From a virus, in the IMG/VR virus record IMGVR_UViG_3300025109_003118, positions 1-28,519 of that record: DNA of 28,519 bases. The stretch is one strand, 5' to 3'. The position numbers were made by a program, and so were the translations under genes. Shown one piece after another: positions 1,728 to 28,519 of this stretch (its first letter is position 1; the number at the start of each line of letters is the position of its first letter). The notes under the pieces are model-generated. The model was not told the DNA's origin. It searched no databases and was given only the letters and a program-made list of their open reading frames with translations.

Positions 1728-2153
1728 TTAATCTGGATTCCCCTTCCATGTTTTCCATATATAAAAACCCATGATTATTCCAATTAATGTAAAAAAAGCT
1801 GTTATTAAAACTCCGAACTCACTACCAAATATAGACTGGTATGCAGATTTCATTGCGGTTGATACAAATCTTACAGTTGTAAATGGACCTACTTTAAATG
1901 CAGTTCCTCCCTCTGTTGCATCTGTTTGTGAACTAATAGTGCTTTTCATTAAAGCTCCAACAGAGGTATTTGCGTCATCATAAGCTACTTCAACATCAGA
2001 TTCTAATGAAGTTTTGATACCTGAATAATTTCCTGCACTATCTATATTAACTCTTGTATCATTTTCACTACCAAAATTAATTCCAAAAGAAAGAATTGCA
2101 ATTACAAATAACCCAATCAATACAAGACTTGACATAAATTTAATCTGCCCCAT
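1728..2153 (-). CDS. Membrane protein with N- and C-terminal helices around an ectodomain
   Basis: The 141-aa product has an N-terminal hydrophobic segment (SLVLIGLFVIAILSFGINFG), about 90 polar residues, and a C-terminal transmembrane helix (FFTLIGIIMGFYIWKTWKG). The middle section is Thr/Ser rich and free of Cys. The same helix-ectodomain-helix plan is seen in the proteins at 19386-20646, but I see no clear sequence match to them. Its ATG overlaps the stop of the upstream spike gene (TAATG), a sign of coupled translation. Function is unknown; a minor virion membrane protein is plausible. Confidence 0.8.
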   Translation of the reverse strand: MGQIKFMSSLVLIGLFVIAILSFGINFGSENDTRVNIDSAGNYSGIKTSLESDVEVAYDDANTSVGALMKSTISSQTDATEGGTAFKVGPFTTVRFVSTAMKSAYQSIFGSEFGVLITAFFTLIGIIMGFYIWKTWKGNPD

Positions 2154-5100
2154 TATTGACGAGTTCCTCCTTTAATTAACATGAGTCCTATTGCAATTAT
2201 AAACCATAGTAAAGTTGCACCTGTTCCTGTCCAACTTGGCACATAAATAAGATTTAGTGATACCATTATAACTGAACCAAGTGCTAATAATATTCCATAA
2301 ACCATTGGGTTGTTAGAAGTTGCAGATACTCCAATAAATATTAAACATATGAATAATGCAATAAACAATAAATTAGCACCATATATTTCAATAGGTTTAG
2401 AATTTAATCTAATTGTTGCTTGGGTTTGGAATTCCCCCGCTTTATATAACTTTGCAACAACAGTAGTGTTTCCAAAACTTGCAGGCATAGTGCAACTTAA
2501 TGCTCCACCTGAAGAAGTTAAACTATCACTACAAACAGTATTATTACCTAATGAATCAAATAATGTAACATTTAAACTAATCTCTGAAGATACTCCTGAC
2601 GGAATTGTATAAACCGAATCCACAACTCTTGTGTCCTCGTCAAAAGTAAGTGTATAAGAAAAGTCATTAAGGTTTCTAAAATCACTTGGTAAATTAGACG
2701 AAGAGAAACTATTCAAATTTATCTCACAAGAAATTAATAACGGGTTCTGACAATCCGCAACAAAGTCTGTGAATGTGGATAACACTACTCCTCCTTTAGA
2801 AATTATAATATTATATATAACATCATTTCTAACTAAATGTCCAATTGTATATCCCTCATCACCTGACTTTGGAAATTCAACTGTTTTAAACAATCCCTCC
2901 TCTATATACTTTCTTTGAATATTAAATATTGCTCCAACTACTGGAACGAAGTTAGAATCTTTATATGTAATTTTAAACTCAGTTCCTTTGGAAGAGTTTA
3001 GATTATATAATTTAAATAGTGTATTTTGAGTTTGGTCATTCAATTCAAAGTTTTGGAAATGATAAAACTCTTGGAATCTGTTAAGTGATTTATATTCTAC
3101 AACTCCATCTAATCTATATTCAGTTGTTGTTAAATTATTCTGAACACAAACCAACGCAGGATTAGTTAATGCAAAGTCATTAGAATAGTTCAACACTTGG
3201 GTATTTGTTGCTGTATCAATAACTTCTAATTCTAATTTAATTGAAGTATTTTGATTTGGACCATCTAATAATGATTGATCATCTTCATCATACAATGTAA
3301 AATTGAATAGTTGGTTTACATATGCTGAACAATCATCAAGTGCTAACAATGAAACTGTTTGGTTATGTAATGAAGAATTAATCTGTGAACCATCGTCTGT
3401 ATTAATTGTCCAAAAGAAAGTATTATTAATCTTTGCTGTAGTACTTGGAATAGTTATATTTCTTATAATCAAAGCGTTTGTTCCTGAAGCTTCTAATGTT
3501 CCTTCATACTCAGTATTATTGTAATTTAAAAAAGCAGTTGATACTCGGATATTTGAAGCTAATGTTATGTTTATTTTAAATGTTTCAACTGAACCTTCAA
3601 TTGTATCATTGTTGAATGTTTCAGAAAGGATAAAGAAATTGTCTACTTGTAGTGAAAAATTACCATCTGATATAAAACAACTAGCTAATAACGAGTTGTT
3701 AATACCACAACTTTCAGTATTCCAAGTATAATTTCCTTTAGATAATGTAACATCTAACTCTGAATTATTTAGATCATTTCCAGTAATACTTCTTGTTGAT
3801 TGATTAAATAATGATCCCCCAGAGTCATATACAAATAATGTTGTGTTAGTTAAATTAAGATTTACAGGACTGTAAGTTACATTAAAACCAACTGTTTGAT
3901 TAATTGTTACTGTATTATTTGCAGGTTTTGTTAAACTAACTGTCATTGAAGTTGGACCTGCATCATGAAATTCTAATCCTACTCCATTATTATACAAACT
4001 TAATACTTCACTTTGTGTTAAAGCTCTGTTTACCCACACCGAAAGTTCATCCATCCCTCCACCATAATTATTATTTGCTTGTGCTGAATATTGTCCTAAT
4101 TGAATTACATCAGGTTGTGAATCCAAATCATTAATCCAAGCTCCCATATCAGCAGCTGTTAAAACTCTATCTTGTTTTGTTCCGTTTAAATAAAACGATA
4201 CGTTCGTACCGTCTTGAGTTACCACAAAATGTTGCCATTCGTTAAATGTATTGTCTCCAATTCCTGATTGATTAGTTGATAATTCCCATTTAACTGTGCT
4301 ATCATCAACTAGTTCAATGGTAATCTCATCATTTCCTCCCCCTCTTGCATCTATTTTCAAAGCTATATAATTTGTAGTACCTCCATCACCATACTGAACT
4401 GCATATCCATTTTCAGCATTTGAATTAACTGGTTTTAACCATATTGAAAATGAACCAGTTGCTGAGTTAGTTAAATTTTTAAATCCTCCAGAAGTAACTA
4501 ATTTATCACCATCACTAGAAAAGTTGAATGATAAATTTTGAATTCCAGGTTTACTTCTATCAGGACCTGCACCACTTAAATTATAATGAGCTGTTAAACC
4601 TATATCTATTGCTTCTCCACTTCCGTCAAATGTTGTGTGCATTTCTAAATCATCTTTTAATCCCGAAGTCCATCTTGCCCATTCATTAATCTCTTTCCCA
4701 AATAATGTTAGAATCCATTCAACATTATCTCCTTCTTGAACATCTACAAATACTCCAATTGTAATAGTTCCTTTAGGTAGCACATTTAATTTACTTTCTT
4801 CTAAGTCAACCCATTCATAAATATCTTCCAAATAAGTTCCAACTATTTCGTTTGGACACCTATTTCTCATTATTCCATTATCATTAAACTCTTCACAGGT
4901 TTTTGAATATCTATTCACCTCTCTTTGTCCTGAAACAATTTGATATTTATATTTGAATGTTCTATCAAACTTTTTCATTCCATTATTCACATTATAAAAT
5001 TCCATATCTTTTAACGCATTAGAATAACCATCTCCTAAATTATTAACTTCAAACTCTGCAACTTTTTGATAAACTCCGCTACCTTGATCAAAAACTTTGT

Positions 5101-5314
5101 AAACTAATGGGGTGTTTAATTTAACTGTTGCAATATCATCTCCAAAACCTAAAGCGTTTGTAATTGTTACTTCTCTTTTATCTGCATCATAAGATTTAAC
5201 ATTATCAAAATCAAACGCTGAAACTAATGGAATTGAGGTAAGGATTACCATTACTAATACAAAAAAAAGTCCGTAGTGAGCTTTTATGGACGAGTTATTT
5301 GTTTGTTTTTCCAT
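2153..5314 (-). CDS. Giant membrane-anchored spike with LamG/concanavalin-like domain
   Basis: I chose ATG 5314 (1053 aa); a GTG at 5332 would add six residues. There is a signal peptide or anchor near residues 13-34 (YGLFFVLVMVILTSIPLVSA). A long extracellular region follows, including a LamG/concanavalin-type jelly roll (about residues 225-450; WQHFVVTQDGTNVSFYLNGT is typical) and then Ig-like beta domains rich in Asn-X-Thr/Ser. The C-terminus has about three to four hydrophobic helices (roughly residues 970-1050). Such proteins bind glycans or cell surfaces. With the fibre it is the best candidate for host attachment or fusion. It lies in the structural operon between two small membrane protein genes. 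The function is inferred from architecture. Confidence 0.85.
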   Translation of the reverse strand: MEKQTNNSSIKAHYGLFFVLVMVILTSIPLVSAFDFDNVKSYDADKREVTITNALGFGDDIATVKLNTPLVYKVFDQGSGVYQKVAEFEVNNLGDGYSNALKDMEFYNVNNGMKKFDRTFKYKYQIVSGQREVNRYSKTCEEFNDNGIMRNRCPNEIVGTYLEDIYEWVDLEESKLNVLPKGTITIGVFVDVQEGDNVEWILTLFGKEINEWARWTSGLKDDLEMHTTFDGSGEAIDIGLTAHYNLSGAGPDRSKPGIQNLSFNFSSDGDKLVTSGGFKNLTNSATGSFSIWLKPVNSNAENGYAVQYGDGGTTNYIALKIDARGGGNDEITIELVDDSTVKWELSTNQSGIGDNTFNEWQHFVVTQDGTNVSFYLNGTKQDRVLTAADMGAWINDLDSQPDVIQLGQYSAQANNNYGGGMDELSVWVNRALTQSEVLSLYNNGVGLEFHDAGPTSMTVSLTKPANNTVTINQTVGFNVTYSPVNLNLTNTTLFVYDSGGSLFNQSTRSITGNDLNNSELDVTLSKGNYTWNTESCGINNSLLASCFISDGNFSLQVDNFFILSETFNNDTIEGSVETFKINITLASNIRVSTAFLNYNNTEYEGTLEASGTNALIIRNITIPSTTAKINNTFFWTINTDDGSQINSSLHNQTVSLLALDDCSAYVNQLFNFTLYDEDDQSLLDGPNQNTSIKLELEVIDTATNTQVLNYSNDFALTNPALVCVQNNLTTTEYRLDGVVEYKSLNRFQEFYHFQNFELNDQTQNTLFKLYNLNSSKGTEFKITYKDSNFVPVVGAIFNIQRKYIEEGLFKTVEFPKSGDEGYTIGHLVRNDVIYNIIISKGGVVLSTFTDFVADCQNPLLISCEINLNSFSSSNLPSDFRNLNDFSYTLTFDEDTRVVDSVYTIPSGVSSEISLNVTLFDSLGNNTVCSDSLTSSGGALSCTMPASFGNTTVVAKLYKAGEFQTQATIRLNSKPIEIYGANLLFIALFICLIFIGVSATSNNPMVYGILLALGSVIMVSLNLIYVPSWTGTGATLLWFIIAIGLMLIKGGTRQ

Positions 5315-5321
5315 TTTTTTG

Positions 5322-5864
5322 CTAGATTCCACCCCCTTCTACGAATTCTCCACTAAACATTATGATTCCACAAACAAATCCAATCACACTCATTACCATT
5401 GGAGAATATAATAACAACCAAGATAACAAAACTTGTTCATGTAATCTTGCACCAACTTCTGTTCCATCATTATAAAACTCTTCATAAATATTACTGATAA
5501 AAATACTTGTAACTATTAATAAAAACATACACACAAAAAAGAATCCAACTAACCATTTATTTCCAATCATTCTAAAACTAACAGCTAAACCAATACAACC
5601 AATTAGTCCCATAAAGTAGAATATTCCTGCTAACCAAGTAAAACTTTGAATAACTGTATTAACTGGTTGAATTGTATATCCACCATATTCCGTAAAGTTT
5701 GCATCACCAACATTTCCTATTGATAAGAACTCTGGTACAACTTCATCAGCTACCCAATCAAATGTCATAGTACCAAATACTAATAATAATCCTACGAAAA
5801 GTAGTAAGAATAAAATTGCAACCATTATTAAGATTGATTCAATCTGTCCTTTTTTACTTTCCAT
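5322..5864 (-). CDS. Four-helix membrane protein with pilin-like N-terminus
   Basis: Start ATG 5864 has GGGAGG a few bases upstream, which favours it over an in-frame ATG 33 nt earlier; the product is 180 aa. The N-terminus MESKKGQIESILIM resembles an archaeal class III (type IV pilin) signal, with KKG before a hydrophobic helix and a Glu near +3. Three further transmembrane segments follow, which ordinary pilins lack. The gene overlaps the end of the upstream regulator-like gene by 11 nt. I do not recognise a family. It may be a virion membrane or assembly factor; processing by a prepilin peptidase is only a possibility. Confidence 0.8.
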   Translation of the reverse strand: MESKKGQIESILIMVAILFLLLFVGLLLVFGTMTFDWVADEVVPEFLSIGNVGDANFTEYGGYTIQPVNTVIQSFTWLAGIFYFMGLIGCIGLAVSFRMIGNKWLVGFFFVCMFLLIVTSIFISNIYEEFYNDGTEVGARLHEQVLLSWLLLYSPMVMSVIGFVCGIIMFSGEFVEGGGI

Positions 5865-11133: not shown

Positions 11134-11574
11134 ATGGTTTATGATGTTAGTGGAAAAGAGAGTGAATGGAATGAAGCTAATTTTAAATCCAAACGGTTGC
11201 ATGATATCCAAGAATTAATTAACTACCTTAGAATGAATCCACTTGGAATGACAGAAGGCAAATGGAATTATGAGTTAATCTTAAAAAATATTGAAACACT
11301 GTATGGAGAAGGAAGAAGTAAATATAAATCAACAGAGAAAAAAGAATTAGATGATTTAAAAGACTTCATCAACAAAACACTAAAATTAATGCCTCCATTT
11401 ATTATAGTAAAAAAACAAAATTTAACTGATAAAAAACCAAGTGTAACATTTAATGAAAAAAATTTTGAAATTTTAATGAATTTGTTATATGATTTTGAAA
11501 TGAGAGTTAAAGATTATAATGATGACCATGGACTTACTACTAAGAATAAAGGAACATCAGGATTATTTGGATAA
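11134..11574 (+). CDS. 146-aa hypothetical protein paired with the P-loop ATPase
   Basis: ATG 11134 was chosen because the TATA box lies 43 nt upstream; a longer in-frame extension to 10969 would run through the promoter and is rejected. The protein is soluble, charged and mostly helical (SKRLHDIQELINYLRMNP near the start) and ends in a Gly-rich tail. Its stop overlaps the ATPase start (TAATG). An obligate partner of the ATPase, such as a DNA- or portal-recognition subunit, is possible but not shown by sequence. Confidence 0.8.
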   Translation: MVYDVSGKESEWNEANFKSKRLHDIQELINYLRMNPLGMTEGKWNYELILKNIETLYGEGRSKYKSTEKKELDDLKDFINKTLKLMPPFIIVKKQNLTDKKPSVTFNEKNFEILMNLLYDFEMRVKDYNDDHGLTTKNKGTSGLFG

Positions 11575-12440
11575 TGGTAAGTGTTTATTTAAAATTAACA
11601 TCAGATGGATGGAAAGAAGTTATTAAATCTGATTTCTGGATAGATAGACCATTATTAGAAAAACTTAAATCATTAAATAAAATTCAAGAGAACAATTGGG
11701 ATGGAGTTATTATTATTGATGGTAAAGAAAGAAGTGGTAAATCTGTTTTAGGAATGGTTTGTGGATGGTATCTCTCTCAAGGAAAGATGACTATTCAAAA
11801 TTTTGCAAAAGGACTTGATGATGCAGCAAGAAAAATTTCTTCTCTTCCAGATAAAAGTGTTTTAATTATGGATGAAGGGAGTTTAGTCTTTTCTTCTAAA
11901 GATTCTAATTCAACTGCACAAAAAAAATTAATTAAATTAATGGATGTCATTGGACAAAAGAATATGATCTTTATTATTTGTCTACCTTGTTATTTTGATT
12001 TAAATAAAACAATTGCAGTAAGAAGAAGTTTATTTTTATGTCATGTTTATCCAGATGCTAAATATAACAGAGGGAATTATGCTTTTTTTGGTGAAAGAAA
12101 AAAGAAAATTCTTTATACATTAGGAAAAAAGAACTATGATAGTTACAAAGAACCATCAGCAGAATTTATTGGAAGATATTTAGATTTTGAACCTAATTTT
12201 TATAAAGACTATTTAGAATTAATAAAAAAAGAATCACTTAATGAAGTATTAAGAGAAGCTATGCTTGAAAATAAAACACCTGAGCAAAAGATTATAGAAT
12301 GTGAAGCATTAATTTATGGCTGGTTACTTGAAAATGGAATTATGAAACAAAAAGAATTAGTAAAGATAAAAGGACAAGCAAAAGCTACAATTTCAAATAG
12401 ATTATCTTTATATAGAGAAGAAATAAAGCCAAATCTCTAA
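11574..12440 (+). CDS. P-loop ATPase, candidate packaging or virion-assembly motor
   Basis: The 288-aa protein has Walker A GKERSGKS (residues 50-57) after strand GVIIID, and Walker B VLIMDEG (96-102) with the catalytic Glu. A conserved-looking segment FIICLPCYFDL lies near 132-143. The C-terminus (about 230-288) looks like a winged helix-turn-helix (KQKELVKIKGQAKATISNRL). The size and motif order fit the broad FtsK/HerA-type and Zot/pI-type ATPases used by archaeal and filamentous viruses for DNA packaging or extrusion. No large terminase is present, so this is the best candidate motor. An AAA-type regulator is a weaker alternative. Confidence 0.8.
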   Translation: MVSVYLKLTSDGWKEVIKSDFWIDRPLLEKLKSLNKIQENNWDGVIIIDGKERSGKSVLGMVCGWYLSQGKMTIQNFAKGLDDAARKISSLPDKSVLIMDEGSLVFSSKDSNSTAQKKLIKLMDVIGQKNMIFIICLPCYFDLNKTIAVRRSLFLCHVYPDAKYNRGNYAFFGERKKKILYTLGKKNYDSYKEPSAEFIGRYLDFEPNFYKDYLELIKKESLNEVLREAMLENKTPEQKIIECEALIYGWLLENGIMKQKELVKIKGQAKATISNRLSLYREEIKPNL

Positions 12441-12566: not shown

Positions 12567-12896
12567 TTATTTTTTATTTAAATGATAATTTGCATATTTG
12601 TTACACCACCACTCTTCAAAAACATCTACGGCAACAAATAATGATAACATTGGAAATGCAATCCATAACATCCAATGATTTAAAATAGAAAGTGTTAATG
12701 AAATCATCCATAACAAATGTGCAATCCCTTGCCACATAATTAATGCAGACGTCGACGGTAAATTATTAAATTTAATGTGTCCTTTCTCATGCCACCATTC
12801 TCTTGATCCTTTCTTACATCCATATATTTTCCCAGTGTTAATATCTGCATGTGGTTTATTTTGTAAATCTGTCAATAATTTTACTACTGCATCCAT
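12567..12896 (-). CDS. Small membrane protein with HExxH metallopeptidase signature
   Basis: The 109-aa product carries HEKGH at residues 36-40, the zinc-binding HExxH signature. Two membrane helices follow (about 52-72 and 75-91), then FEEWWCNKYA (93-102), where E94 or E95 could be the third zinc ligand, as in M48-type gluzincins (Glu a few residues before an Asp/Asn-X-X-Ala). A CKKG turn precedes HEKGH. At about 110 residues it is far smaller than classical M48 enzymes, so activity is uncertain. I recall similar short proteins in DPANN genomes. It may process coat or host membrane proteins. It is last in a three-gene membrane operon. Confidence 0.7.
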   Translation of the reverse strand: MDAVVKLLTDLQNKPHADINTGKIYGCKKGSREWWHEKGHIKFNNLPSTSALIMWQGIAHLLWMISLTLSILNHWMLWIAFPMLSLFVAVDVFEEWWCNKYANYHLNKK

Positions 12897-13341: not shown

Positions 13342-14073
13342 TTATTTAACATCTCCCATAATTTTAAATATTTTTCGTTTTTCACTATCAGTAAAAATCA
13401 ATGAACTACCATAATGAGCCATAAATGTATCCATATCATGTCCAAGACGATAACATAATTCAGCCATTTCAATATTAAATGTTCTCATCCACATTCCATA
13501 TGTTTTTCTAATATTATGTGGTGAAAAATTATACCAATCTTTAATTGTTGTCTTTTTTAATTTTCTTTTTAACATATTAGAATAAGAAATTGTTTTTGAA
13601 GTATAATATTGTTTTTTTTCATTATTATCTAAACTATCATAATTTTGTGGTAATTTAGAATTATCTAAAAAAATATATTCATTATTATTAATTTTTTTAT
13701 TTCGAATAAAAGATTTATATTCTTTAATATAATTATTTGAAACAAAAAATCCTCTAGATTTTCCTATAGCATAAAAATTTTTCTTTGCTTTTCTTTGCTT
13801 TACAATTTTAAAATTAATTGAATTTCGTTCAGTATTAATATCTTCATATTTTAAATTAAGTGCTTCCATTATTCTTGCTCCTGTATGTAATAATGTAATA
13901 AAAAAGAATTTATGTTCTTTATTTTTAAATTGAGAAATAAATTCAATCCATTCATCAGGAAAAAAATATCTCCGTCTATCTGTTCTAACAGAATATTTTG
14001 TTCCATCGGATTTAGTTCCAATTAATAATCCATCAAATTTTGATTTTTTAAGTACTAGTTTTTTTGTATTCAT
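13342..14073 (-). CDS. Tyrosine recombinase (integrase/resolvase)
   Basis: The 243-aa protein shows the tyrosine recombinase catalytic set: Arg67 in HTGAR, a Lys in the VKQRK strand (near 92), His186 and Arg189 in PHNIRKT, His212 in LGHD and nucleophile Tyr221 in HYGSS. The N-terminal arm is short (about 35-40 residues before the catalytic domain), so a full SAM-like core-binding domain appears reduced or absent. It could integrate the element or resolve multimers. I see no tRNA fragment in the window that would be an attachment site. The gene overlaps the hydroxymethylase gene by 26 nt and is the last gene of that operon. Confidence 0.9.
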   Translation of the reverse strand: MNTKKLVLKKSKFDGLLIGTKSDGTKYSVRTDRRRYFFPDEWIEFISQFKNKEHKFFFITLLHTGARIMEALNLKYEDINTERNSINFKIVKQRKAKKNFYAIGKSRGFFVSNNYIKEYKSFIRNKKINNNEYIFLDNSKLPQNYDSLDNNEKKQYYTSKTISYSNMLKRKLKKTTIKDWYNFSPHNIRKTYGMWMRTFNIEMAELCYRLGHDMDTFMAHYGSSLIFTDSEKRKIFKIMGDVK

Positions 14074-14767
14074 TTATTATATCTTCAATCATTTGAAAAT
14101 GTCTTTCATAAACATGTAAACTTGCTGATGTATGAATATTATGTCCTAATTTTAAATCATTATATTTAAGTCTTAATTGCTTAAATATATTTTGTTGTAA
14201 TACTGAAAAAAATGGAAAATCATAACAAAATCCGTATATAAGATCATTACTTCTCATATTTGTAATTCCAATTAATTTATTATCTCTAATTAAATGTTGA
14301 GTATTTATTGTACATACAAAATCTTTAACTCCATCTTCTTTATGTCTTGGTTGATTAAAATTAATCACAGCTTGACGAGAATCTTTATCATCTAATAGTG
14401 AATTAACAACCCAATCAAATTGAGATGCATCATATTTTTCTAATTTTTGTTTCCAAACAAGATAACCATAATTTGAATTTACATTTCCATATTCATCTGC
14501 AATTTCTTTCCATAGTGAAGCAGATTTGCCAATTTTATCAATTGATAAATCTCCACTTAGATACCATTCCATTTCAGTATTTAAATAATCCATAGATAAT
14601 TTTCTAGCAGGATTTTTAACAATATTTTGTGTCACATCTTCAACTATTAATGTAGGTTGAATTAATTCTTTTGTTCTTTTTCCTCTTGGTGAATATTCTG
14701 GAGCTTCAACTAATTTTTTGCATGTTTTATATAACACATCATCAACTGTTTGTCCTTTTATTTCCAT
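14048..14767 (-). CDS. dCMP hydroxymethylase (thymidylate synthase family)
   Basis: The 239-aa length matches T4 gp42 (246 aa). Recalled T4 landmarks align without gaps locally: catalytic Glu65 in EMEWY (T4 E60), NSNYG (98-101 region), DSRQ, catalytic Cys152 in DFVCT (T4 C148), LIRD, NMRSND (170-175) and SLHVYERHF near the C-terminus. Most telling is Asp183 in GFCYD. T4 has Asp179 here, while thymidylate synthases have Asn; the Asn-to-Asp change moves specificity from dUMP to dCMP. The predicted reaction is dCMP plus methylene-tetrahydrofolate to 5-hydroxymethyl-dCMP. The dCTPase gene in the same operon would supply dCMP. A dUMP-type enzyme is less likely. The alignment is from memory and needs checking. 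Confidence 0.85.
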   Translation of the reverse strand: MEIKGQTVDDVLYKTCKKLVEAPEYSPRGKRTKELIQPTLIVEDVTQNIVKNPARKLSMDYLNTEMEWYLSGDLSIDKIGKSASLWKEIADEYGNVNSNYGYLVWKQKLEKYDASQFDWVVNSLLDDKDSRQAVINFNQPRHKEDGVKDFVCTINTQHLIRDNKLIGITNMRSNDLIYGFCYDFPFFSVLQQNIFKQLRLKYNDLKLGHNIHTSASLHVYERHFQMIEDIINEYKKTST

Positions 14768-15351
14768 TTAAAATTGTTTTTTCCTTCATTTACTATTTCC
14801 CAACAAATAAAATGTTCATTTTTTATTCCAACAAGAGGTTTATAATATGAAAATTCAAATATTATATCTGTTAAAGGAACTTTTCGAAAATTTTGAATAC
14901 ATTCATTTACTTTAGAATCATTTGTTGTTTCTAATCTTGATTGAATATCATATGATTGATCAACTTTATATTCATGTGTTACTCTTCTAACTGTTCCTGG
15001 TCCATTTGCAATTTCTATATATAAATGTTCTAAAGGTCCATATTTTCTTGCAGCTCCTGCAAATAAACAATCATCTGGATTAATTGGTTTTCCTAAAATA
15101 ACATAATAACCACTATATCTTAATCCATCAATTAAAGCAGAAGCTTGATCAATTGGAACAAAAGGATAATGTGGTGTAAGCCAATTTCCTACTGAACTAT
15201 TTACTTTTTCAGTTCTAATACTACAATTGTCTAAATTTTTTAAAAAATCTTCATAATCATTTTTATCATCAACTGATATTAAAATGCTATCTTCAGCATT
15301 TAGTCTGAATGATTCAACTAATCGAATTCTTTCATATTTTTTTGATTTCAT
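14758..15351 (-). CDS. 197-aa conserved-looking protein of the DNA modification operon
   Basis: I do not recognise this protein. It has no signal or membrane segment and no Walker motif. The central region has enzyme-like phrases (ALIDGLRYSGYYVILGKPI, then CLFAGAARKYGPLEHL and IANGPGTVRRVTHE) that suggest a compact alpha/beta fold with a conserved GPGTVRR loop. It overlaps the hydroxymethylase start by 10 nt and the upstream small gene by 20 nt. A role in nucleotide or base modification is inferred only from this neighbourhood. Confidence 0.75.
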   Translation of the reverse strand: MKSKKYERIRLVESFRLNAEDSILISVDDKNDYEDFLKNLDNCSIRTEKVNSSVGNWLTPHYPFVPIDQASALIDGLRYSGYYVILGKPINPDDCLFAGAARKYGPLEHLYIEIANGPGTVRRVTHEYKVDQSYDIQSRLETTNDSKVNECIQNFRKVPLTDIIFEFSYYKPLVGIKNEHFICWEIVNEGKNNFKWK

Positions 15352-15580
15352 TTATTTCTTCTTCCATAATTCTATTTATCTCTTGGAAAATTTCTTTATT
15401 ACTTTTGGGTTTTTCTTCTTCAACTTCTTCAGTATTTAATTTTTCTTCATCTTTAATTTCTTTCATTATTCTTGTAAAAGAAAAACTTAATATTTTTTTC
15501 TTCTCTTCAAGTGAAAAATTATTTTCATCAAGTAAAATCATTATTTTATCATAAATTTCTTTTTTGATTTGTTTTTCCAT
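15332..15580 (-). CDS. 82-aa charged helical hypothetical protein
   Basis: ATG 15580 has a strong AAGGAGGT site, one of the few Shine-Dalgarno signals in this operon. The product is Glu/Lys-rich and almost certainly helical (a coiled coil is likely in the C-terminal half, KSNKEIFQEINRIMEEEINE). It lies between the methyltransferase and the 197-aa gene. It could be an accessory subunit; no family is recognised. Confidence 0.7.
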   Translation of the reverse strand: MEKQIKKEIYDKIMILLDENNFSLEEKKKILSFSFTRIMKEIKDEEKLNTEEVEEEKPKSNKEIFQEINRIMEEEINEIKKI

Positions 15581-15581
15581 T

Positions 15582-16334
15582 TTATATACCTCCTTTTGAT
15601 TTTATAAGTTTTAATATCCAAAGACAATTCCGCGATTCTTTAGGAAAAAATGGTGCCATAATATTACTTATTAAATTTGAATCATAATATTTATTTAATT
15701 CATAAAACATATGCTTTTGCCATTCATTCATTAAAGGTTTATAATCTTTTTGAGAAGCAAATGTTCCAAATGTATCTTCAACTTTAAAATAAATTTCTAA
15801 TTGATTTTTTAATTCACTATATTTATACTCTTGAATAACTCCATCAATTATATGATTGTTTGCTGCTCCAACTTTTTCATCGAAGATTGGTGTTGATAAT
15901 AAAACAGTTGTATTTTCATTGCAATGCTTTTTTATATTCGATAAAAACACATCTAAATTTTTTTTATTAACATGTTCAATTACTTCAAAACATACAATTA
16001 TATCCCAATCATTTCCTTCATTTAAATTATTATCAACTAAATCACACTGTTTAAAATTTACCCAATCTATTTTTTTATATTTTTCATTTGCTTTATCAAC
16101 TGTAGATTTTTTAAATTCTAATCCTAAATAATTTTTTGCTTTATATCTGTTTCGATATAAAACTTCTGCTAAATTACCTGTACCACATCCAAAATCTAAA
16201 ATGTTCATTCCTATTTTTGCTCTTTTTAAAACATGTGTCCATCTAAGATAATGTGCAAATTGATCTCTGTGAAACACATGCTTTTCAAAAGTTACATCTG
16301 GACTTAATTGTGTTATATTATATTCTTTTGTCAT
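15582..16334 (-). CDS. Class I SAM-dependent methyltransferase
   Basis: The 250-aa protein has motif I LDFGCGTGN (46-54), an acidic motif II in YLGLEF, and motif IV region DIIVCFEVIEH (about 109-119), followed by a strand VLLSTPIF. This is the UbiG/small-molecule type rather than a DNA methyltransferase with DPPY or PC motifs. The C-terminal part ends in SRNCLWILK. In a modification operon it could methylate a nucleotide, a hydroxymethyl group or a cofactor; the substrate cannot be told from sequence. It overlaps the next upstream gene by 4 nt. Confidence 0.85.
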   Translation of the reverse strand: MTKEYNITQLSPDVTFEKHVFHRDQFAHYLRWTHVLKRAKIGMNILDFGCGTGNLAEVLYRNRYKAKNYLGLEFKKSTVDKANEKYKKIDWVNFKQCDLVDNNLNEGNDWDIIVCFEVIEHVNKKNLDVFLSNIKKHCNENTTVLLSTPIFDEKVGAANNHIIDGVIQEYKYSELKNQLEIYFKVEDTFGTFASQKDYKPLMNEWQKHMFYELNKYYDSNLISNIMAPFFPKESRNCLWILKLIKSKGGI

Positions 16335-16567
16335 TTTTTATTTATTGCATGCCTCATTATTTGTGTTGGATTAAACTGACTATTTTCTTTTTTTGTTAAA
16401 TATTTTTCAGCAATTTCTTTACAAACTTTTCCCCATTTTAAATTTGGTCTAATTTCACATAATCTTTCTACAAATAATGAAAGTAAAACTTCTGCTTTTC
16501 CATCATGCATATATGTTTTTTCTTTATATTTTTTTTCATCAATTCTATATTCTTTTTTTTCTTTCAT
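16331..16567 (-). CDS. 78-aa hypothetical protein
   Basis: Charged, mostly helical protein of unknown family, with a very Lys/Glu-rich N-terminus and a core around VLLSLFVERLCEIRPNLKWG. It overlaps genes on both sides by 4 nt, so it is clearly part of the modification operon. The segment KVCKEIAEKYL could be a small helix-turn-helix, but this is weak. Confidence 0.65.
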   Translation of the reverse strand: MKEKKEYRIDEKKYKEKTYMHDGKAEVLLSLFVERLCEIRPNLKWGKVCKEIAEKYLTKKENSQFNPTQIMRHAINKK

Positions 16568-16884
16568 TTTAATAATTCTTCTAAACCTCTTTCAATTAAT
16601 TCATCCCAATCAGTACTTAGTGTATCTAAATCTAAAACATATCTTTTTGATTTATGTTTTATTCCTCTATCATTCATCCATGCATTACAAAATGCTTGTT
16701 GATAACCTGAAGTAACATTTGCAGATTTTGCTTTTGGAATTTTTAATAATTTTCGATTTGAATATTCTATTGCTTTATAAATTGACTTAAAATTATCTGT
16801 TTCATTCATTAATTTTGCTCCAAAATAACAAGCTAACTTTTTATATTCCATTGGAAATATTCCTAAAGGTTTTTTAATAGTCAT
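16564..16884 (-). CDS. 106-aa hypothetical protein
   Basis: Soluble, basic protein lacking recognisable catalytic motifs. The middle carries ANVTSGYQQAFCNAWMNDRG and the C-terminus is acidic and helical. It overlaps the dCTPase gene by 11 nt. Gene order suggests a part in nucleotide metabolism or DNA modification, but nothing in its sequence proves it. Confidence 0.7.
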   Translation of the reverse strand: MTIKKPLGIFPMEYKKLACYFGAKLMNETDNFKSIYKAIEYSNRKLLKIPKAKSANVTSGYQQAFCNAWMNDRGIKHKSKRYVLDLDTLSTDWDELIERGLEELLK

Positions 16885-17230
16885 TATTTTGCCTCGTATG
16901 ATTTTCTTTATTTTTTCCTAAGTATCTTTCAAAAACTTCTTCATGTGTCATTCCAGCCGAAATTGAAAGATTAATTACAAAATGCCAAAGATCAATAATT
17001 TCTTCTTTATATTTTTCTTCATCTAATTGTTGTGTTTTTTTCCAACCATATTTTATTTTATGAGGATTTTTCCAAGCTGTCTCTCTCATAATTTCTCCTA
17101 ACTCATCAAAACATGCTAATAAATTTAAATTAATATATTCTTGATTATGAACTAAACTATCTAATGGACCTGCAACTCTTTCTTGGAGTGTTGCTTGTTT
17201 TTCAAATAGTTCTTTTAATTTATCTTTCAT
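16874..17230 (-). CDS. All-alpha dCTPase/dUTPase (dimeric dUTPase family, T4 gp56-like)
   Basis: ATG 17230 (MKDKLKELFEKQ) fits the family start; an in-frame ATG lies 27 nt upstream. The 118-aa protein has the metal-binding ELGE pair (E43, E46) and EEIIDLWHF (E77, D80), typical of all-alpha NTP pyrophosphohydrolases. It ends in YLGKNKENHTRQNNDY, very close to the recalled T4 gp56 ending. The predicted reaction is dCTP (and/or dUTP) to dNMP plus pyrophosphate. Beside a dCMP hydroxymethylase, it would drain dCTP and feed dCMP to hydroxymethylation, as in T4. A simple dUTPase role is the alternative. Confidence 0.85.
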   Translation of the reverse strand: MKDKLKELFEKQATLQERVAGPLDSLVHNQEYINLNLLACFDELGEIMRETAWKNPHKIKYGWKKTQQLDEEKYKEEIIDLWHFVINLSISAGMTHEEVFERYLGKNKENHTRQNNDY

Positions 17231-17339
17231 TTTTATATCCTTCAAAAATATTTTCATCTGCTTTTTCTAAATCTTCAGCTACAACAACTTTACATTTTTC
17301 TCTAAATTTTTTTATATCAAATTTTTTATCTTTAGTCAT
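17220..17339 (-). CDS. 39-aa charged micro-protein
   Basis: ATG 17339 overlaps the upstream TGA (ATGA), and the stop lies 11 nt inside the dCTPase gene. The product begins MTKDKKFDIKKFREKCKVVV and is Lys/Glu-rich. Overlap on both sides supports translation. Function is unknown, perhaps only coupling. Confidence 0.55.
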   Translation of the reverse strand: MTKDKKFDIKKFREKCKVVVAEDLEKADENIFEGYKNER

Positions 17340-17470
17340 TTTCTTTCAAACTCCAAATGTTTAATTCCAATTTTACTATGTCTTGTATGTGCATGATTAC
17401 ATTTACTACAAAAATATTGTGGAGTTGTTTCTCCTCCATGTTTAAAATAATTTTGTTTTTTCTTTTTCAT
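17336..17470 (-). CDS. 44-aa zinc-finger-like protein, first gene of the modification operon
   Basis: The product has FCSKCNHAHTRHSK, a CxxC followed by a His cluster that could bind zinc. It is the first frame after the operon promoter region with its inverted TTTAAAGATAAA sites, so it could be an autoregulator. Start ATG 17470 follows an A-rich leader without a clear Shine-Dalgarno. Confidence 0.6.
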   Translation of the reverse strand: MKKKKQNYFKHGGETTPQYFCSKCNHAHTRHSKIGIKHLEFERK

Positions 17471-17807: not shown

Positions 17808-17953
17808 TGGCGATGAAAACTTATAGTGTTACTCTTCTCGAGAATGAAGTTGAAAGAGCAAGACAACTCTACAAAAAATATGGTTCAAAACTATCTCCCC
17901 TCCTCGGAGAATTACTGAAGAAGTGGTCTGATGAAGAGGAGGGGAAACGCTAA
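17804..17953 (+). CDS. 49-aa ribbon-helix-helix regulator
   Basis: The first ATG (17804) overlaps the zinc-ribbon stop; ATG 17813 is an alternative. After MKTYSVTLLENEVERARQLY (strand, then helix) comes a second helix, SPLLGELLKKW, the standard ribbon-helix-helix order. Such dimers bind palindromic operators, so it could be the regulator of the TTTAAAGATAAA sites upstream. The stop overlaps the next ATG by one base. Confidence 0.7.
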   Translation: MMAMKTYSVTLLENEVERARQLYKKYGSKLSPLLGELLKKWSDEEEGKR

Positions 17954-18654
17954 TGGCACTTACAATTGCTGGACAAGATTTAGGAATTAACATGCCTTCA
18001 TTTACTGGGGGAGGGTTTGGTTCTTGGTTAACCATCATTGCAGTTATTTTATTAGTAGTTGGATTTAGTGCTGTTGCATTTTGGTTTTGGTATCAAGGAA
18101 AGATTTTTAATAAGAGAATTAAAGTTTTTGAAAATATTGCTGGAGCAGGTTGGCAACATACCGGAAATGACAAAGCAAGAATTGTCAAAGTTGGCGACGG
18201 TGGTGAAGAAATTATGTATCTACAAAAGAGGAGAGTTTACAGAACTGCTTACGGACGTAAGATGGGAAAAAATACATATTGGTTCGCTATCGGGCAGGAC
18301 GGATATTGGTATAATGTGGTTTTGGGTGATTTAGATGCGAAAATGGGTATGCTCGATATCGAACCAATTGATAGAGACATGAGATACATGCATGTCGCTA
18401 TTAGAAAAAATATTCAAGAGAGATATAGAAAAATTGGATTCATGGAAAAGTATGGACAAATTTTAATGAGTGGAATATTTTTTATTATTTTAATTATTGG
18501 AATTTGGTTATTGATTTCAAAAGTTGAAGATTTAATTACAATTGCTGGACAAAATATTGAAGCAGGAAAACCTGTTGCAGATGCTTTATCAAATGCTGTT
18601 GGAAATCTAGATAATTTATGTAGTGGAGGTTCAGGTATAAAATCTGCAAGTTAA
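17953..18654 (+). CDS. 233-aa two-helix membrane protein
   Basis: After a Gly-rich N-terminus (MALTIAGQDLGINMPSF) come one membrane helix (about 24-48), a polar domain of about 115 residues with beta character (RRVYRTAYGRKMGKNTYWFA), a second helix (about 172-190) and a C-terminal tail ending in Ser/Gly. No family is recognised. It starts an apparent membrane complex with the next proteins, and could be a secretion or virion assembly component. Confidence 0.8.
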   Translation: MALTIAGQDLGINMPSFTGGGFGSWLTIIAVILLVVGFSAVAFWFWYQGKIFNKRIKVFENIAGAGWQHTGNDKARIVKVGDGGEEIMYLQKRRVYRTAYGRKMGKNTYWFAIGQDGYWYNVVLGDLDAKMGMLDIEPIDRDMRYMHVAIRKNIQERYRKIGFMEKYGQILMSGIFFIILIIGIWLLISKVEDLITIAGQNIEAGKPVADALSNAVGNLDNLCSGGSGIKSAS

Positions 18655-19385: not shown

Positions 19386-19979
19386 TTACAATGAGCCACG
19401 TGATTCTCCACCGATGCCCATTCTCTTAGATTGAGCTACTAATAGAACTATAACTCCGAAGAGTAGAACTACTGCACCTATCAATAAAATGGTTGGAATC
19501 TTTTCTGATACATTATCAATTCCTTCTGTGAAGTTAGTACTCATTCGGTTACTTGATAATTCATAGCTTGTCAAGTTGTAGTAAGTGAATGATACGTTTG
19601 CTGCATGCCATTGGTATGCAGTTGCGTTACTAAACTGTCCTGTTGCGGAATTAAAAGTATAGTTATCTGCGTTAATTTCATCAGCAGAAGCTGATGAATG
19701 GTTGTAAAGTGTCACAGCCGCAAATCCCCTATTAATCGTTGAATCAAACATTGATAGGATACTTATGTCCGAACTTCCATTTACTGTTATCGACGCATCA
19801 TAACCTGTAGACTGAGTTGAGTTTTGTCTTAATAGATTTGCTCCCAATAAAGTTGATACAATTACTAGAACAATTATCACTCCAATAATTAAACCACCAG
19901 TACCATTAATCAAATCTCCAACAACACCTCCCCTTTTATTTAAACTTCTTATTCCCATGACTTGGTTTGATTTTGTCAT
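19386..19979 (-). CDS. Long coat-like membrane paralogue with inserted ectodomain
   Basis: The 197-aa protein shares its first helix region (RGGVVGDLINGTGGLIIGVI) and its last 50 residues (NFTEGIDNVSEKIPTILLIG, then the second helix and QSKRMGIGG) with the two 106-aa proteins upstream. Between the helices it carries about 85 extra residues with several NxS/T sequons, where the others have about 20. This looks like a minor or decorated version of the same virion protein. An internal ATG eight residues in is an alternative start. No clear Shine-Dalgarno is present, so coupling to the upstream gene is likely. Confidence 0.85.
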   Translation of the reverse strand: MTKSNQVMGIRSLNKRGGVVGDLINGTGGLIIGVIIVLVIVSTLLGANLLRQNSTQSTGYDASITVNGSSDISILSMFDSTINRGFAAVTLYNHSSASADEINADNYTFNSATGQFSNATAYQWHAANVSFTYYNLTSYELSSNRMSTNFTEGIDNVSEKIPTILLIGAVVLLFGVIVLLVAQSKRMGIGGESRGSL

Positions 19980-19990
19980 GTCAAGTTTAA

Positions 19991-20116
19991 TTAAAGAGAA
20001 CCTGAACCTCCTCCGCCTCCGATTCCCATTCTCTTAGATTGAGCAACTAGTAGAACTATAACTCCGAAGAGTAGAACCACTGCACCTATCAATAGAATAG
20101 TTGGAATCTTTTCTGA
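19991..20116 (-). repeat. 126-bp identical segment shared by coat paralogues
   Basis: Bases 19991-20116 are identical to 20326-20451 (offset 335). The first difference is at 20117/20452. The identity includes silent sites, so it points to recent duplication or gene conversion. The third paralogue (19386) is more diverged. Confidence 0.9.
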
Positions 20117-20311
20117 AACGTTATCAATTCCTTCTGTGAAGTTAGCAGCCATCCACGACGACGAATTGTCATAAGCACTTCCAGTTGTCAATAGATTTGC
20201 TCCCAATAAAGTTGATACAATTACCAAAACAATAATTACTCCGATAATTAATCCTCCAGTTCCATTGATTAAGTCACCAACAACTCCCCCTCTTTTTTTT
20301 AATTTTTGCAT
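19991..20311 (-). CDS. Candidate major coat protein, membrane paralogue 2
   Basis: The 106-aa protein has a short basic N-terminus, a helix (LIIGVIIVLVIVSTLLGANLL), a small external loop with NxS/T sites, a second helix (ILLIGAVVLLFGVIVLLVAQ) and a Gly/Ser tail. It is almost identical to the next paralogue upstream outside the loop. Small, two-helix, highly hydrophobic proteins in tandem are a hallmark of membrane-embedded coat proteins in filamentous or pleomorphic viruses. No experimental family is recognised. Confidence 0.85.
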   Translation of the reverse strand: MQKLKKRGGVVGDLINGTGGLIIGVIIVLVIVSTLLGANLLTTGSAYDNSSSWMAANFTEGIDNVSEKIPTILLIGAVVLLFGVIVLLVAQSKRMGIGGGGGSGSL

Positions 20312-20325
20312 TCTAAAAAATTAAA

Positions 20326-20646
20326 TTAAAGAGAACCTGAACCTCCTCCGCCTCCGATTCCCATTCTCTTAGATTGAGCAACTAGTAGAACTATAACTCC
20401 GAAGAGTAGAACCACTGCACCTATCAATAGAATAGTTGGAATCTTTTCTGATACATTATCAATTCCTTCTGTGAAGTTCTGTGCCATGCTTGTAGACGAA
20501 ACATCATAAACACTTGCAGATGTCAATAAATTTGCACCAAGTAAAGTTGATACAATTACTAAAACAATAATTACTCCAATAATTAGTCCTCCAGTACCGT
20601 TAATCAAATCACCAACAACTCCTCCACGCTTAAATGATTTTCTCAT
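20326..20646 (-). CDS. Candidate major coat protein, membrane paralogue 1
   Basis: This is the first gene of the three-paralogue operon and the only one with a perfect AAAGGAGGT site (20657-20665), suggesting the highest expression. It is 106 aa, with two membrane helices, a short loop (SASVYDVSSTSMAQ) and a C-terminal GGGGGSGSL. The helices and tail match paralogue 2. High expression and tandem copies fit a major virion protein; a pilin-like cell surface protein is the alternative. Confidence 0.85.
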   Translation of the reverse strand: MRKSFKRGGVVGDLINGTGGLIIGVIIVLVIVSTLLGANLLTSASVYDVSSTSMAQNFTEGIDNVSEKIPTILLIGAVVLLFGVIVLLVAQSKRMGIGGGGGSGSL

Positions 20647-24013: not shown

Positions 24014-24193
24014 TCATGATTCTCGACTGGAAATGAAGGTAGCAACCCAACTAGTGACTTTGTCATTTTGTGTATTAATAGTTGGGTTAGTTGGGTTTTC
24101 AGGGTTACTATCAACTAGTTTACATGTGTATAGATTAGTTGAAACAACCCTACTAACCATACTAACCCTACTAATTTGCTTGTTTTTTAACAT
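24014..24193 (-). CDS. 59-aa repeat-bearing small protein, uncertain
   Basis: ATG 24193 overlaps the helicase stop (TAATG) and follows GGAAGGA, so translation is plausible. The product contains SRVSMVSRVVS and NPENPTNPT, encoded by the 9-bp repeats. Those repeats may be present for DNA function instead, in which case the frame could be incidental. Confidence 0.4.
   Translation of the reverse strand: MLKNKQISRVSMVSRVVSTNLYTCKLVDSNPENPTNPTINTQNDKVTSWVATFISSRES
24044..24178. repeat. Inverted clusters of 9-bp iteron-like repeats, candidate origin
   Basis: AGTTGGGTT occurs twice in tandem (24080-24088, 24089-24097), and AACCCAACTA at 24044-24053 is its inverse. Further on come ACTAACCAT, ACTAACCCT and ACTAATTTG in direct tandem (24152-24178). 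The arrays face each other and lie beside an AT-rich tract and the SF3 helicase gene, the usual setting for a replication origin. The 9-bp period equals three codons, so coding repeats are the alternative reading. Confidence 0.55.
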
Positions 24194-25581
24194 TATTCCT
24201 TCCATTTTACACCTTCCCAAACATTCATTTGACCACCTTTTCCATCATATAACCAGTCAGCATATTTTCGATTTGCAGATATTCCTTTTTCTTTCATTTT
24301 CCTTCCAAGAGTATTTTCAGCCAATTCTCTATGTCTATTTTCTTTACACCATGAAACAAACTTCTTATAGAAATCAGATTTAGAAACATAACTATTTAAA
24401 TCTTCAATTATATTTTCATCTAAGAACTTCTGTAAGAAATCAGATTTAGCTTCAAACCTATCTTTTCTTTCTTCTATTGAACCTTCATTATAGAATTCCC
24501 TTTTAATTAATAAATTTTTAAGAATTTTAACACATTTTGAAGCTAAACAATTATATTCTTCATCAGGAATATCATTTAATATATCTTTTTTTTCATCAAA
24601 AGTATTTGGAAAATCTATAATCATCCAACGCCTATAAAAACCAATAGTTTTATCATCAGTTGTTGGAAGATTATTTGTAGAAATTAGTATCTTTGCATAA
24701 TTTTTTTCATGAAATAAGTCTTTATTTTTATACTCAAATCCAATTAAATCTCCACCACTTAATTTTTTTAATGTAGAAGTTTTTTTCATTTCATTAAAAT
24801 TAGTTTCACCCATTTGACAAACCAACTTTTTATGTAATCTAGTTATTTCAAATCTAGAAAGAAGCAAAGTATCTAGTTCAGTTGTTGCACAATTTTCAAC
24901 CCCAACAAATTTAGTAATTAAATCTAAGAACTTTGTTTTTCCATTTAGTCCAACACCAATAAAACAAAATATTCTATTAATAGGATAATCAACCAATAAA
25001 CAATAAGAAATTATTTCATATAAAGTTGAAACATAATCTTTTCCAACCCATTCTTTAAATATTCTATCCATGTTTGGAGTTTGCATATCTTCTTCACTTA
25101 AAGCATATGGAATAGGATTAGTGATAAAATATTTTGGTGATGCTGTAAATGTTTCTCCTGTTTCAATATCAATAATTTTATCTTTAAATTGCACCCAAGT
25201 ATTTTTGATTGGTTCAGGATTATATTTTCTACCTTCTTGTTTTAATGCTTCAATGATTTCTCCTTTATCTTTTGAACTAATTGTATTTGTTCTTGATTGA
25301 TAATCTACTGCATTTAATACATCTGTTTCATCAACTAAAGCCCATTTATATTTTTCCTTATCCCATATCCACCACATTTTTGATTTATCATAAAACAAAG
25401 GTTGATGTCTTAAAAATTGTCTAGCTAAATCTCTTTTGTCGACGAAAACAAAAATATTTCTCCCTAGGTTTTCAATGATTTGTTTTTTTTCTTTATGATC
25501 TTTAATTTGTTCTAATTCATTTTTTCCAGTAAATAATCTTTCCTCTTTCCACAATTCTTTTAATCTTTCTTCTTCACTCAT
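24193..25581 (-). CDS. Superfamily 3 replicative helicase (D5-type)
   Basis: The 462-aa protein has Walker A GVGLNGKT (209-216, the SF3 form GxxxNGKT), Walker B-type KLVCQMGETN (about 252-261), motif C ILISTNN (299-304) and a candidate arginine finger in FYRRWMIIDF (315-324). The N-terminal part (about 40-180) resembles the D5_N region that precedes the helicase in poxvirus D5 and many phage proteins. No polymerase-type primase domain is visible upstream, so priming must come from the host or another gene. It is the only recognisable replication protein here. The start overlaps the preceding zinc-ribbon gene by 4 nt and has GGAG upstream. Confidence 0.9.
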   Translation of the reverse strand: MSEEERLKELWKEERLFTGKNELEQIKDHKEKKQIIENLGRNIFVFVDKRDLARQFLRHQPLFYDKSKMWWIWDKEKYKWALVDETDVLNAVDYQSRTNTISSKDKGEIIEALKQEGRKYNPEPIKNTWVQFKDKIIDIETGETFTASPKYFITNPIPYALSEEDMQTPNMDRIFKEWVGKDYVSTLYEIISYCLLVDYPINRIFCFIGVGLNGKTKFLDLITKFVGVENCATTELDTLLLSRFEITRLHKKLVCQMGETNFNEMKKTSTLKKLSGGDLIGFEYKNKDLFHEKNYAKILISTNNLPTTDDKTIGFYRRWMIIDFPNTFDEKKDILNDIPDEEYNCLASKCVKILKNLLIKREFYNEGSIEERKDRFEAKSDFLQKFLDENIIEDLNSYVSKSDFYKKFVSWCKENRHRELAENTLGRKMKEKGISANRKYADWLYDGKGGQMNVWEGVKWKE

Positions 25582-27317: not shown

Positions 27318-28519
27318 TTAACAAACCTCTGCTGTAGGATTTAATGCACATATTGCTGCTTTTAATAATGTATTTTCTTCTTTCAACTCAAAAATAGCTT
27401 GTCTTAAAACATCAATTTCCATTCCTAGTTCTACTCCTGATTCAGTTTTATTATAAGGATAAACTATTCTTATTCTTGTTTCATTATTGCAATCTGTTCT
27501 TAAATACTCTTTAACAGTTTCATTAAATTCATCCAAAACATCTTCAAATATATCTTCACAAACTTCTTGTTCATATGATTCATTGACAGGAATTGTAAAA
27601 TCAGTTACAGGATAAGTGACATACCCATAAAAACTAGAGTGGTTTATTTCATTACCTGTTTTATAATAATCTGCATCCTTAATATGATCCCAAACATTTT
27701 TATTTTTATCAAAAATACTTGTTCTTGTTATATAACCTGTTGCAGATATATTTGAATCTACCCATATTGAAACTAAATTACTTCCATCTGAAACATTACC
27801 TACAACTGTTAAAGGAAAAGTTGGAATTGTAGTTCCTATTCCCACCTTCCCATTTTCACTTATCCTCATTATCTCTCCTTCTATACCGTTAAAAAATCTA
27901 AAAGCACCTTCCTGATTATTATTATTATCAGTCTGGAATAACAACTCACCATCAACAGACAATAATCCATCATCTGTTGCACTCCCGCCTCTAGAAATTG
28001 TATCTACTGAAGCTAAATTAAAATCCCAAGTACCATCTCCTGATAAGGATAATTGATCTGATGGACTAGTAGTCCCAATTCCGACATTTCCATCGTGGGC
28101 AATAACCATAGCCACATCAGTTGAGCTTCCATCATCACTAACCATAAAAACATGGTCTAAATCCCCAGTCGTTCTTGGTTGATAAACTAAATTTCCATAA
28201 GCATTAAATGGATAAGAACCTGCACTTGTTCCAGTTCTATAAATATGGGGCAAAGCATTATTAACTGGTGCTGAAGTTAAGCCATTCGAAAATTTTAATG
28301 CCCCACCAGTAACTCCTGAAACAGTAACATTTCCTGATGCTTCAATGTTTCCAATTACTTCTAGGGATTCTCCAGGAGCAGCAGTCCCAATCCCCACCTT
28401 CCCATTTTCACTTATCCTCATTATCTCTCCTTCTATACCGTTAAAAAATCTAAAAGCACCTTCCTGATTATTATTATTATCAGTCTGGAATAACAACTCA
28501 CCATCAACAGACAATAATC
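27318..28519 (-). CDS. Fibre, C-terminal part (continues from base 1 across the circle join)
   Basis: The frame is open from 28519 to TAA 27318 and is the continuation of the gene starting at 1393. It holds three more VGIGT motifs, in VGIGTAAPG, VGIGTTSPSD and VGIGTTIPT. After these comes a globular part with GYVTYPVTDF and Cys residues, then a C-terminal coiled coil (VLRQAIFELKEENTLLKAAI) suited to trimer formation, ending in CALNPTAEVC. There is no S74 chaperone domain. The apparent start inside this segment is an artefact of the contig cut. Confidence 0.8.
   Translation of the reverse strand, partial: LLSVDGELLFQTDNNNNQEGAFRFFNGIEGEIMRISENGKVGIGTAAPGESLEVIGNIEASGNVTVSGVTGGALKFSNGLTSAPVNNALPHIYRTGTSAGSYPFNAYGNLVYQPRTTGDLDHVFMVSDDGSSTDVAMVIAHDGNVGIGTTSPSDQLSLSGDGTWDFNLASVDTISRGGSATDDGLLSVDGELLFQTDNNNNQEGAFRFFNGIEGEIMRISENGKVGIGTTIPTFPLTVVGNVSDGSNLVSIWVDSNISATGYITRTSIFDKNKNVWDHIKDADYYKTGNEINHSSFYGYVTYPVTDFTIPVNESYEQEVCEDIFEDVLDEFNETVKEYLRTDCNNETRIRIVYPYNKTESGVELGMEIDVLRQAIFELKEENTLLKAAICALNPTAEVC
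27840..28080 (-). repeat. Duplicated fibre module
   Basis: About 240 nt here (encoding SDQLSLSGDGTWDFNL through the EIMRISENGKVGIGT end) recur with few changes in a second copy that spans the contig ends (about 28390-28519 joined to 34-130). The codons between DTISRG and DDGLL differ between the copies (GSAT versus VDPT). Confidence 0.85.
28487..28519. repeat. 33-bp terminal overlap with bases 1-33
   Basis: The last 33 bases equal the first 33, and also equal 27936-27968. Joining the ends keeps the fibre frame and gives a gene divisible by three, so the contig is probably a circle cut within the repeat. Confidence 0.85.

Follow-up and report, generated by a model that had tools for sequence, protein, structure and literature searches.

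A known route to 5-hydroxymethylcytosine (hmC) in viral DNA is that of phage T4, with the dCMP hydroxymethylase (dCH) gp42, the proteins gp56 and gp1, and alpha- and beta-glucosyltransferases. In the cassettes reported by MetaGPA (PMC8670742), dCH is accompanied by a 5-hydroxymethylcytosine carbamoyltransferase as tailoring enzyme, with a pyrophosphohydrolase and a dCMP deaminase nearby. Here we describe an operon in the IMG/VR virus record IMGVR_UViG_3300025109_003118 (positions 1 to 28,519; this whole analysed stretch of 28,519 nt, or 28.5 kb, is called the window) that resembles both systems. It shares with T4 a predicted gp42-type dCH that carries all tested residues and a pyrophosphatase of the gp56 family. 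It differs from T4 in belonging to a small virus with a probable DPANN host and in including a methyltransferase; a gp1 kinase and a glycosyltransferase were not recognised, and dCTPase activity is only putative. The difference from the MetaGPA cassettes is in the tailoring enzyme, which here is an S-adenosylmethionine (SAM) methyltransferase, a type not found in the main text of PMC8670742. A further similar cassette is gp27–gp31 of Stenotrophomonas phage AXL3 (PMC7504290), which likewise includes a homologue of the methyltransferase, an NTP pyrophosphatase (NTP-PPase) and a thymidylate synthase (TS) family gene with D183 and D149 (numbering of the window protein). AXL3, however, is a tailed bacteriophage, its cassette has a thymidylate kinase gene and a dCMP deaminase, its methyltransferase is 27% identical to ours, and Gly stands in the place of S98.

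We consider it fairly probable that the operon works as a pre-replicative cassette for cytosine modification in a virus most likely infecting DPANN archaea, and that 5-hydroxymethyl-dCMP would be made, incorporated into DNA and then probably methylated. The eight genes of the operon (Table 1) are all on the minus strand, run from 17257 to 13342 and abut or overlap one another. An earlier note on this DNA, made from the letters alone, had described an operon within 13342–17470; the gene positions and the span agree with our map, although the methyltransferase at 15582–16334 went unmentioned there.

The gene at 14048–14767 encodes a TS homologue, as seen from its matches to Pfam PF00303 (E 3e-20) and to the PHROG for thymidylate synthase (E 7e-37). 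Among PDB entries the best match was T4 gp42 (1b49, E 2.6e-30), followed by the CMP hydroxymethylase MilA (5e-19), and the best TS reached 3e-10. A profile built from 64 relatives of the window protein matched T4 dCH at E 1.8e-56; in IMG/VR, such relatives were found with an alignment query, whereas a scan with the single sequence found none. When the AlphaFold (AF2) model (pLDDT 96.7) was superimposed on T4 dCH, the Z score was 24.1 and the root-mean-square deviation 2.3 Å over 218 residues. The model gave Z 26.1 to MilA and 26.2 to 9iqc, compared with at most 21.4 for TS structures.

A study of the ternary complex of T4 dCH named Cys148, Asp179 (for cytosine) and Glu60 as determinants, and Asp145 together with Ser94 and Tyr96 as the signature of hydroxymethylation (PMC6400193). 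The alignment of the window protein is gap-free from the RSND motif to D183, and its C152, D183 and E65 are equivalent to Cys148, Asp179 and Glu60, its D149 (three before the Cys), S98 and Y100 to Asp145, Ser94 and Tyr96, and its D175 to Asp171. All tested signature residues (E65, S98, Y100, D149, C152, D175 and D183) are present. T4 Arg124 is replaced by Gln132, and Gln is common to 72 of 80 relatives at this position. Judged by fold, homology and active-site residues, the gene is that of a T4-type dCMP hydroxymethylase, an activity predicted from these features. The earlier note had ascribed D183, C152 and E65 of T4 dCH to this TS homologue, and both the alignment with gp42 and TS sequences and the predicted structure bear it out, with Asp rather than Asn at the base-recognition position.

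Other activities known in the TS fold were considered for the same gene. An ordinary ThyA was rejected because ThyA proteins of DPANN archaea have Asn at 183 and Leu or Pro at 149, and a dUMP hydroxymethylase of the SPO1 type because SPO1 gp29 has Asn at 183, where the window protein has Asp at both positions. MilA resembles the window protein in fold and in the cytosine-recognising Asp, but its preferred substrate is CMP, and its Lys133 stands at a position that is Arg in deoxynucleotide enzymes and Arg131 in the window protein (PMC5175136). It is very improbable that the gene encodes a flavin-dependent dCMP hydroxylase, that is, a 5-hydroxy-dCMP synthase of the RB69/AfhB type. Such enzymes have the TS fold, D183 and dCMP as substrate, and the Z score to 9iqc is tied with that to MilA, but the identity is 20%, the sequence match is weak (E 4e-4), and the RB69 enzyme, which differs in chemistry (PMC13390438), has E149, N175, F220 and T98, compared with D149, D175, Y220 and S98 in the window protein, on which ground this type was rejected. 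We also regard as improbable an enzyme like the known TS-family dCMP methylase of phage Xp12 (PMC5175136), which would convert dCMP to 5-methyl-dCMP and yield 5-methylcytosine DNA, as D149 with S98 and Y100 is the published signature of water addition, not of hydride transfer.

Relatives of the TS family also occur in DPANN genomes. One DPANN contig (L221, G173:C7, 3418–5317) has a dCH-like gene followed by a protein with an HMUDK helical domain; D183, D149 and C152 are present in the former, E65 and S98 are not conserved, and the neighbouring genes look like housekeeping genes of archaea (TruB/Cbf5-like, ribosomal protein L21e-like and threonine synthase-like). Short TS-like proteins of about 215 amino acids (L211, L201, L209, L212, L214, L217 and L219), with Gly, Ser or Ala aligned at the catalytic Cys, were noted in DPANN genomes, the Pacearchaeota bin G009 among them.

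The second line of evidence is the association of dCH with the methyltransferase. The 80 best IMG/VR homologues of the methyltransferase (50–60% identity) were retrieved by the methyltransferase alone, without regard to dCH. In 75 of these 80 loci the methyltransferase is accompanied by a TS-family gene in the same orientation, usually downstream within about 1 kb, and four of the five loci that lack one have little sequence before the locus end. When near-copies were removed, the proportion was 29 of 30. D183, D149, S98, Y100 and C152 are found in every one of the 75 linked TS genes. In a tree of dCH sequences the linked enzymes are spread over several distinct clades, of which two lie next to T4 gp42 and others among jumbo-phage enzymes, and the linkage label requires at least five changes of state, while the methyltransferases group into a single close family. 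This repeated making or keeping of the pair argues for a shared function. Linked dCH genes have as neighbours dCMP deaminase, dUTPase, MazG-type pyrophosphatases and the HMUDK helical domain, and some also a short SAM-synthetase-like protein, compared with kinases, ATP-grasp and sugar-nucleotide enzymes around unlinked dCH genes; this contrast is suggestive only, since the sampling distance from dCH was not the same in both sets. In the phage clusters L140, L157, L143, L151 and L139 the genes between the methyltransferase and dCH encode, in this order, a nucleotidyltransferase-like protein, a short SAM-synthetase-like protein and a dUTPase, and L140 and L157 additionally contain an HMUDK-domain protein.

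Given the conserved pairing of the operon's methyltransferase with dCH genes, the modification may not stop at plain hmC. These results lead us to speculate, with less confidence than for the cassette as such, that the joint product of dCH and the methyltransferase is a methylated form of 5-hydroxymethylcytosine, such as 5-methoxymethyl-deoxycytidine, in the DNA of many environmental bacteriophages as well as of the DPANN virus; the final DNA base here may be one not yet described. Searches of the literature (open-licence papers) found no methoxymethylcytosine in a phage or as a DNA base, no dCH–methyltransferase system and, in line with the earlier note, no hydroxymethylcytosine pathway in an archaeal virus.

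Cultured and complete phages also carry this type of cassette. Distant homologues of the methyltransferase (27–35% identity) are present in five phage records, and the cultured phages AXL3 and PW916, like two complete metagenomic phage genomes from Manatee Spring, share the gene order methyltransferase, NTP-PPase, pyrimidine hydroxymethylase, dCMP deaminase, with a kinase gene annotated in AXL3 and MW202510. The hydroxymethylases of those four phages combine D183 and D149 but have Gly at 98. Of 37 restriction enzymes only two, both with A/T-only sites, cut AXL3 DNA, which resisted the other 35 (PMC7504290). Such cutting fits modification of cytosine (or guanine), and the restriction data lend independent support from experiment to this type of cassette, though not to the virus described here. 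AXL3 gp28 (L228, 7304–8113) was read as a thymidylate synthase by the authors (PMC7504290) and is so annotated, yet its residues are of the dCMP-hydroxymethylase type, which might be why AXL3 DNA resists restriction.

We propose that dCH would use dCMP and methylene-tetrahydrofolate to form 5-hydroxymethyl-dCMP, while the gp56-like pyrophosphatase, whose family is clear, would lower dCTP and/or dUTP. A kinase from the host or an unrecognised one would convert 5-hydroxymethyl-dCMP to the triphosphate, which the polymerase would insert instead of dCTP. The methyltransferase, to judge from its linkage a dedicated partner of dCH, would most likely methylate the hydroxymethylcytosine nucleotide or base, before or after incorporation; the simplest guess is O-methylation of the hydroxymethyl group. 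It would thereby fill the role that glycosyl- or carbamoyltransferases have in bacteriophages, probably serving to evade host nucleases.

The host assignment rests on relatives of the virus. The family-conserved protein encoded at 17953–18654 retrieved eight related virus contigs, which have a structural block in common with the window. A pattern scan of about 85,000 genomes gave one confirmed match, in a Candidatus Pacearchaeota bin, on a contig that agrees in length and coordinates with an IMG/VR record retrieved by the conserved protein, and a profile search of 378 genomes of that bin's class detected the virus family in four, one of them weakly; genes on the retrieved contigs confirm the kinship for three of those four bins. 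As relatives of the virus occur in DPANN bins, one of them Candidatus Pacearchaeota, a DPANN host is likely, with binning errors possible, and the earlier note's view of a virus of DPANN archaea is supported. In two relatives, L003 and L011, the variable genome portion encodes C5-cytosine DNA methylases, joined in L003 by a Dam-type methylase, which indicates that DNA modification recurs in the virus family. The type of recombinase varies across the window (13342–14073), L004, L005, L006, L008 and L011, being either a tyrosine recombinase or serine resolvase-like.

Several observations weigh against the proposed cassette or parts of it. The fold search with the methyltransferase model (pLDDT 88.9) returned generic small-molecule methyltransferases and not DNA methylases, and such generic matches point to no particular substrate or acceptor atom; matches of its profile to Rab GTPases in the PDB were judged to be chance hits in Rossmann-like segments. 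AXL3 lacks S98 (it has Gly). The pyrophosphatase is 29% identical to T4 gp56 (E 3e-13), and its metal site, ExxE (E52, E55) and ExxD (E86, D89), is invariant in the alignment. The homology with gp56 claimed by the earlier note is thus sound, but the destruction of dCTP is less so: in tblastn, dUTPases of Sporosarcina and Microbacterium phages match the protein as well or better, so that its specificity for dCTP is putative and full replacement of cytosine only presumptive. The replacement by hmC that the note envisaged is supported in part: the identity of dCH stands, and the methyltransferase may alter the final base. "T4-like" likewise holds for two steps, dCH and the pyrophosphatase family. 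Pfam searches of 30 open reading frames (ORFs) of the window, on a contig that may be incomplete, recognised no 5-hydroxymethyl-dCMP or NMP kinase, and family searches no glycosyltransferase. Walker A motifs are confined to the ATPase, the primase-helicase and a 937-aa repeat protein, in which the two motifs look like chance occurrences; the absence of a recognisable gp1-like kinase had already been remarked in the note. Cofactor supply is also uncertain, because matches to serine hydroxymethyltransferase (SHMT) are scarce in the likely host class: the named Pacearchaeota bin has none, and in the class to which it belongs just 46 of 280 genomes score above the cut-off. A bin that carries a related virus contig (G226) does have an SHMT match.

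With these points in mind, it is conceivable but rather unlikely that plain hmC is the final product, as in T4 but without glucosylation, and that the methyltransferase acts elsewhere, for example on RNA or protein. The PDB match, superposition and residues of dCH fit this too, as do the generic matches of the methyltransferase with no recognised substrate, but the near-obligatory linkage of the methyltransferase to dCMP-type enzymes, across divergent dCH lineages and phage isolates, argues against it. Concerning the contig itself, this is the only one of the virus family with the cassette (TS-family and dUTPase_2 genes are absent from all eight relatives), and the GC content of the operon is 0.237, compared with 0.307 in the rest, which leaves some room for an assembly chimera. 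That the cassette comes from a tailed bacteriophage and was misassembled onto this contig is nevertheless quite improbable. The closest dCH homologues do lie on tailed-phage contigs and the operon is an AT-richer island, but genes with homologues in the family flank it on both sides (12567–12896, in L004; 17577–17807, in L010; 17953–18654, in all), so that two breakpoints would be needed, and the third positions of the window's ATPase and primase are AT-rich too.

Table 1. Genes of the operon and other features of the window.
Feature	Position	Strand	Evidence
All-alpha NTP pyrophosphatase of the dUTPase_2 family; dCTPase/dUTPase candidate	16874–17257	-	PF08761, E 3e-15
ORF106, operon member	16564–16884	-	no family match above cut-off (Pfam, PHROGs, NCBIfam)
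ORF78, operon member	16331–16567	-	no family match above cut-off (Pfam, PHROGs, NCBIfam)
Class I SAM methyltransferase	15582–16334	-	PF13489, E 1e-16
ORF82, operon member	15332–15580	-	no function assigned from family searches
ORF197, orphan, adjoins dCH on its upstream side	14758–15351	-	no homologue, no Walker A motif
Predicted dCMP hydroxymethylase (dCH), T4 gp42 type	14048–14767	-	PDB 1b49, AF2 model, signature residues
Tyrosine recombinase, last gene of the operon	13342–14073	-	PF00589, E 3e-12
Virus-family conserved protein, bait for relatives and host	17953–18654	+	alignment query
Virus-family ATPase	11574–12440	+	51% identity to L003; Walker A GKERSGKS
Primase-helicase, P4/D5 type	24193–25581	-	TIGR01613, E 1e-38
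Small membrane proteins, three in tandem; possible role in the capsid	19386–20646	-	repeated sequence; homologues in related contigs

For ORF197 no homologue was found in Pfam, PHROGs, NCBIfam, the phage records or the IMG/VR scan. The tandem membrane proteins have two hydrophobic segments each, with an insertion in the first copy, and a search with the possible capsid protein as query retrieved no relatives. A 1059-aa protein (2153–5332) with a laminin-G domain and hydrophobic segments at its termini is kept across the virus family. The record is probably incomplete at its 3' end, because a tail-fibre-like repeat protein (27318–28514) extends to the end of the contig.

The cultured phage AXL3 offers a ready test case, its restriction resistance having been left unexplained by the paper that describes it (PMC7504290). 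The conserved pair of dCH and methyltransferase points to an undescribed chemistry of cytosine tailoring. If our interpretation is correct, pre-replicative cytosine hydroxymethylation would extend beyond tailed bacteriophages, to a virus whose archaeal hosts are very small and reduced, and the question would arise which nucleases DPANN archaea turn on their viruses.

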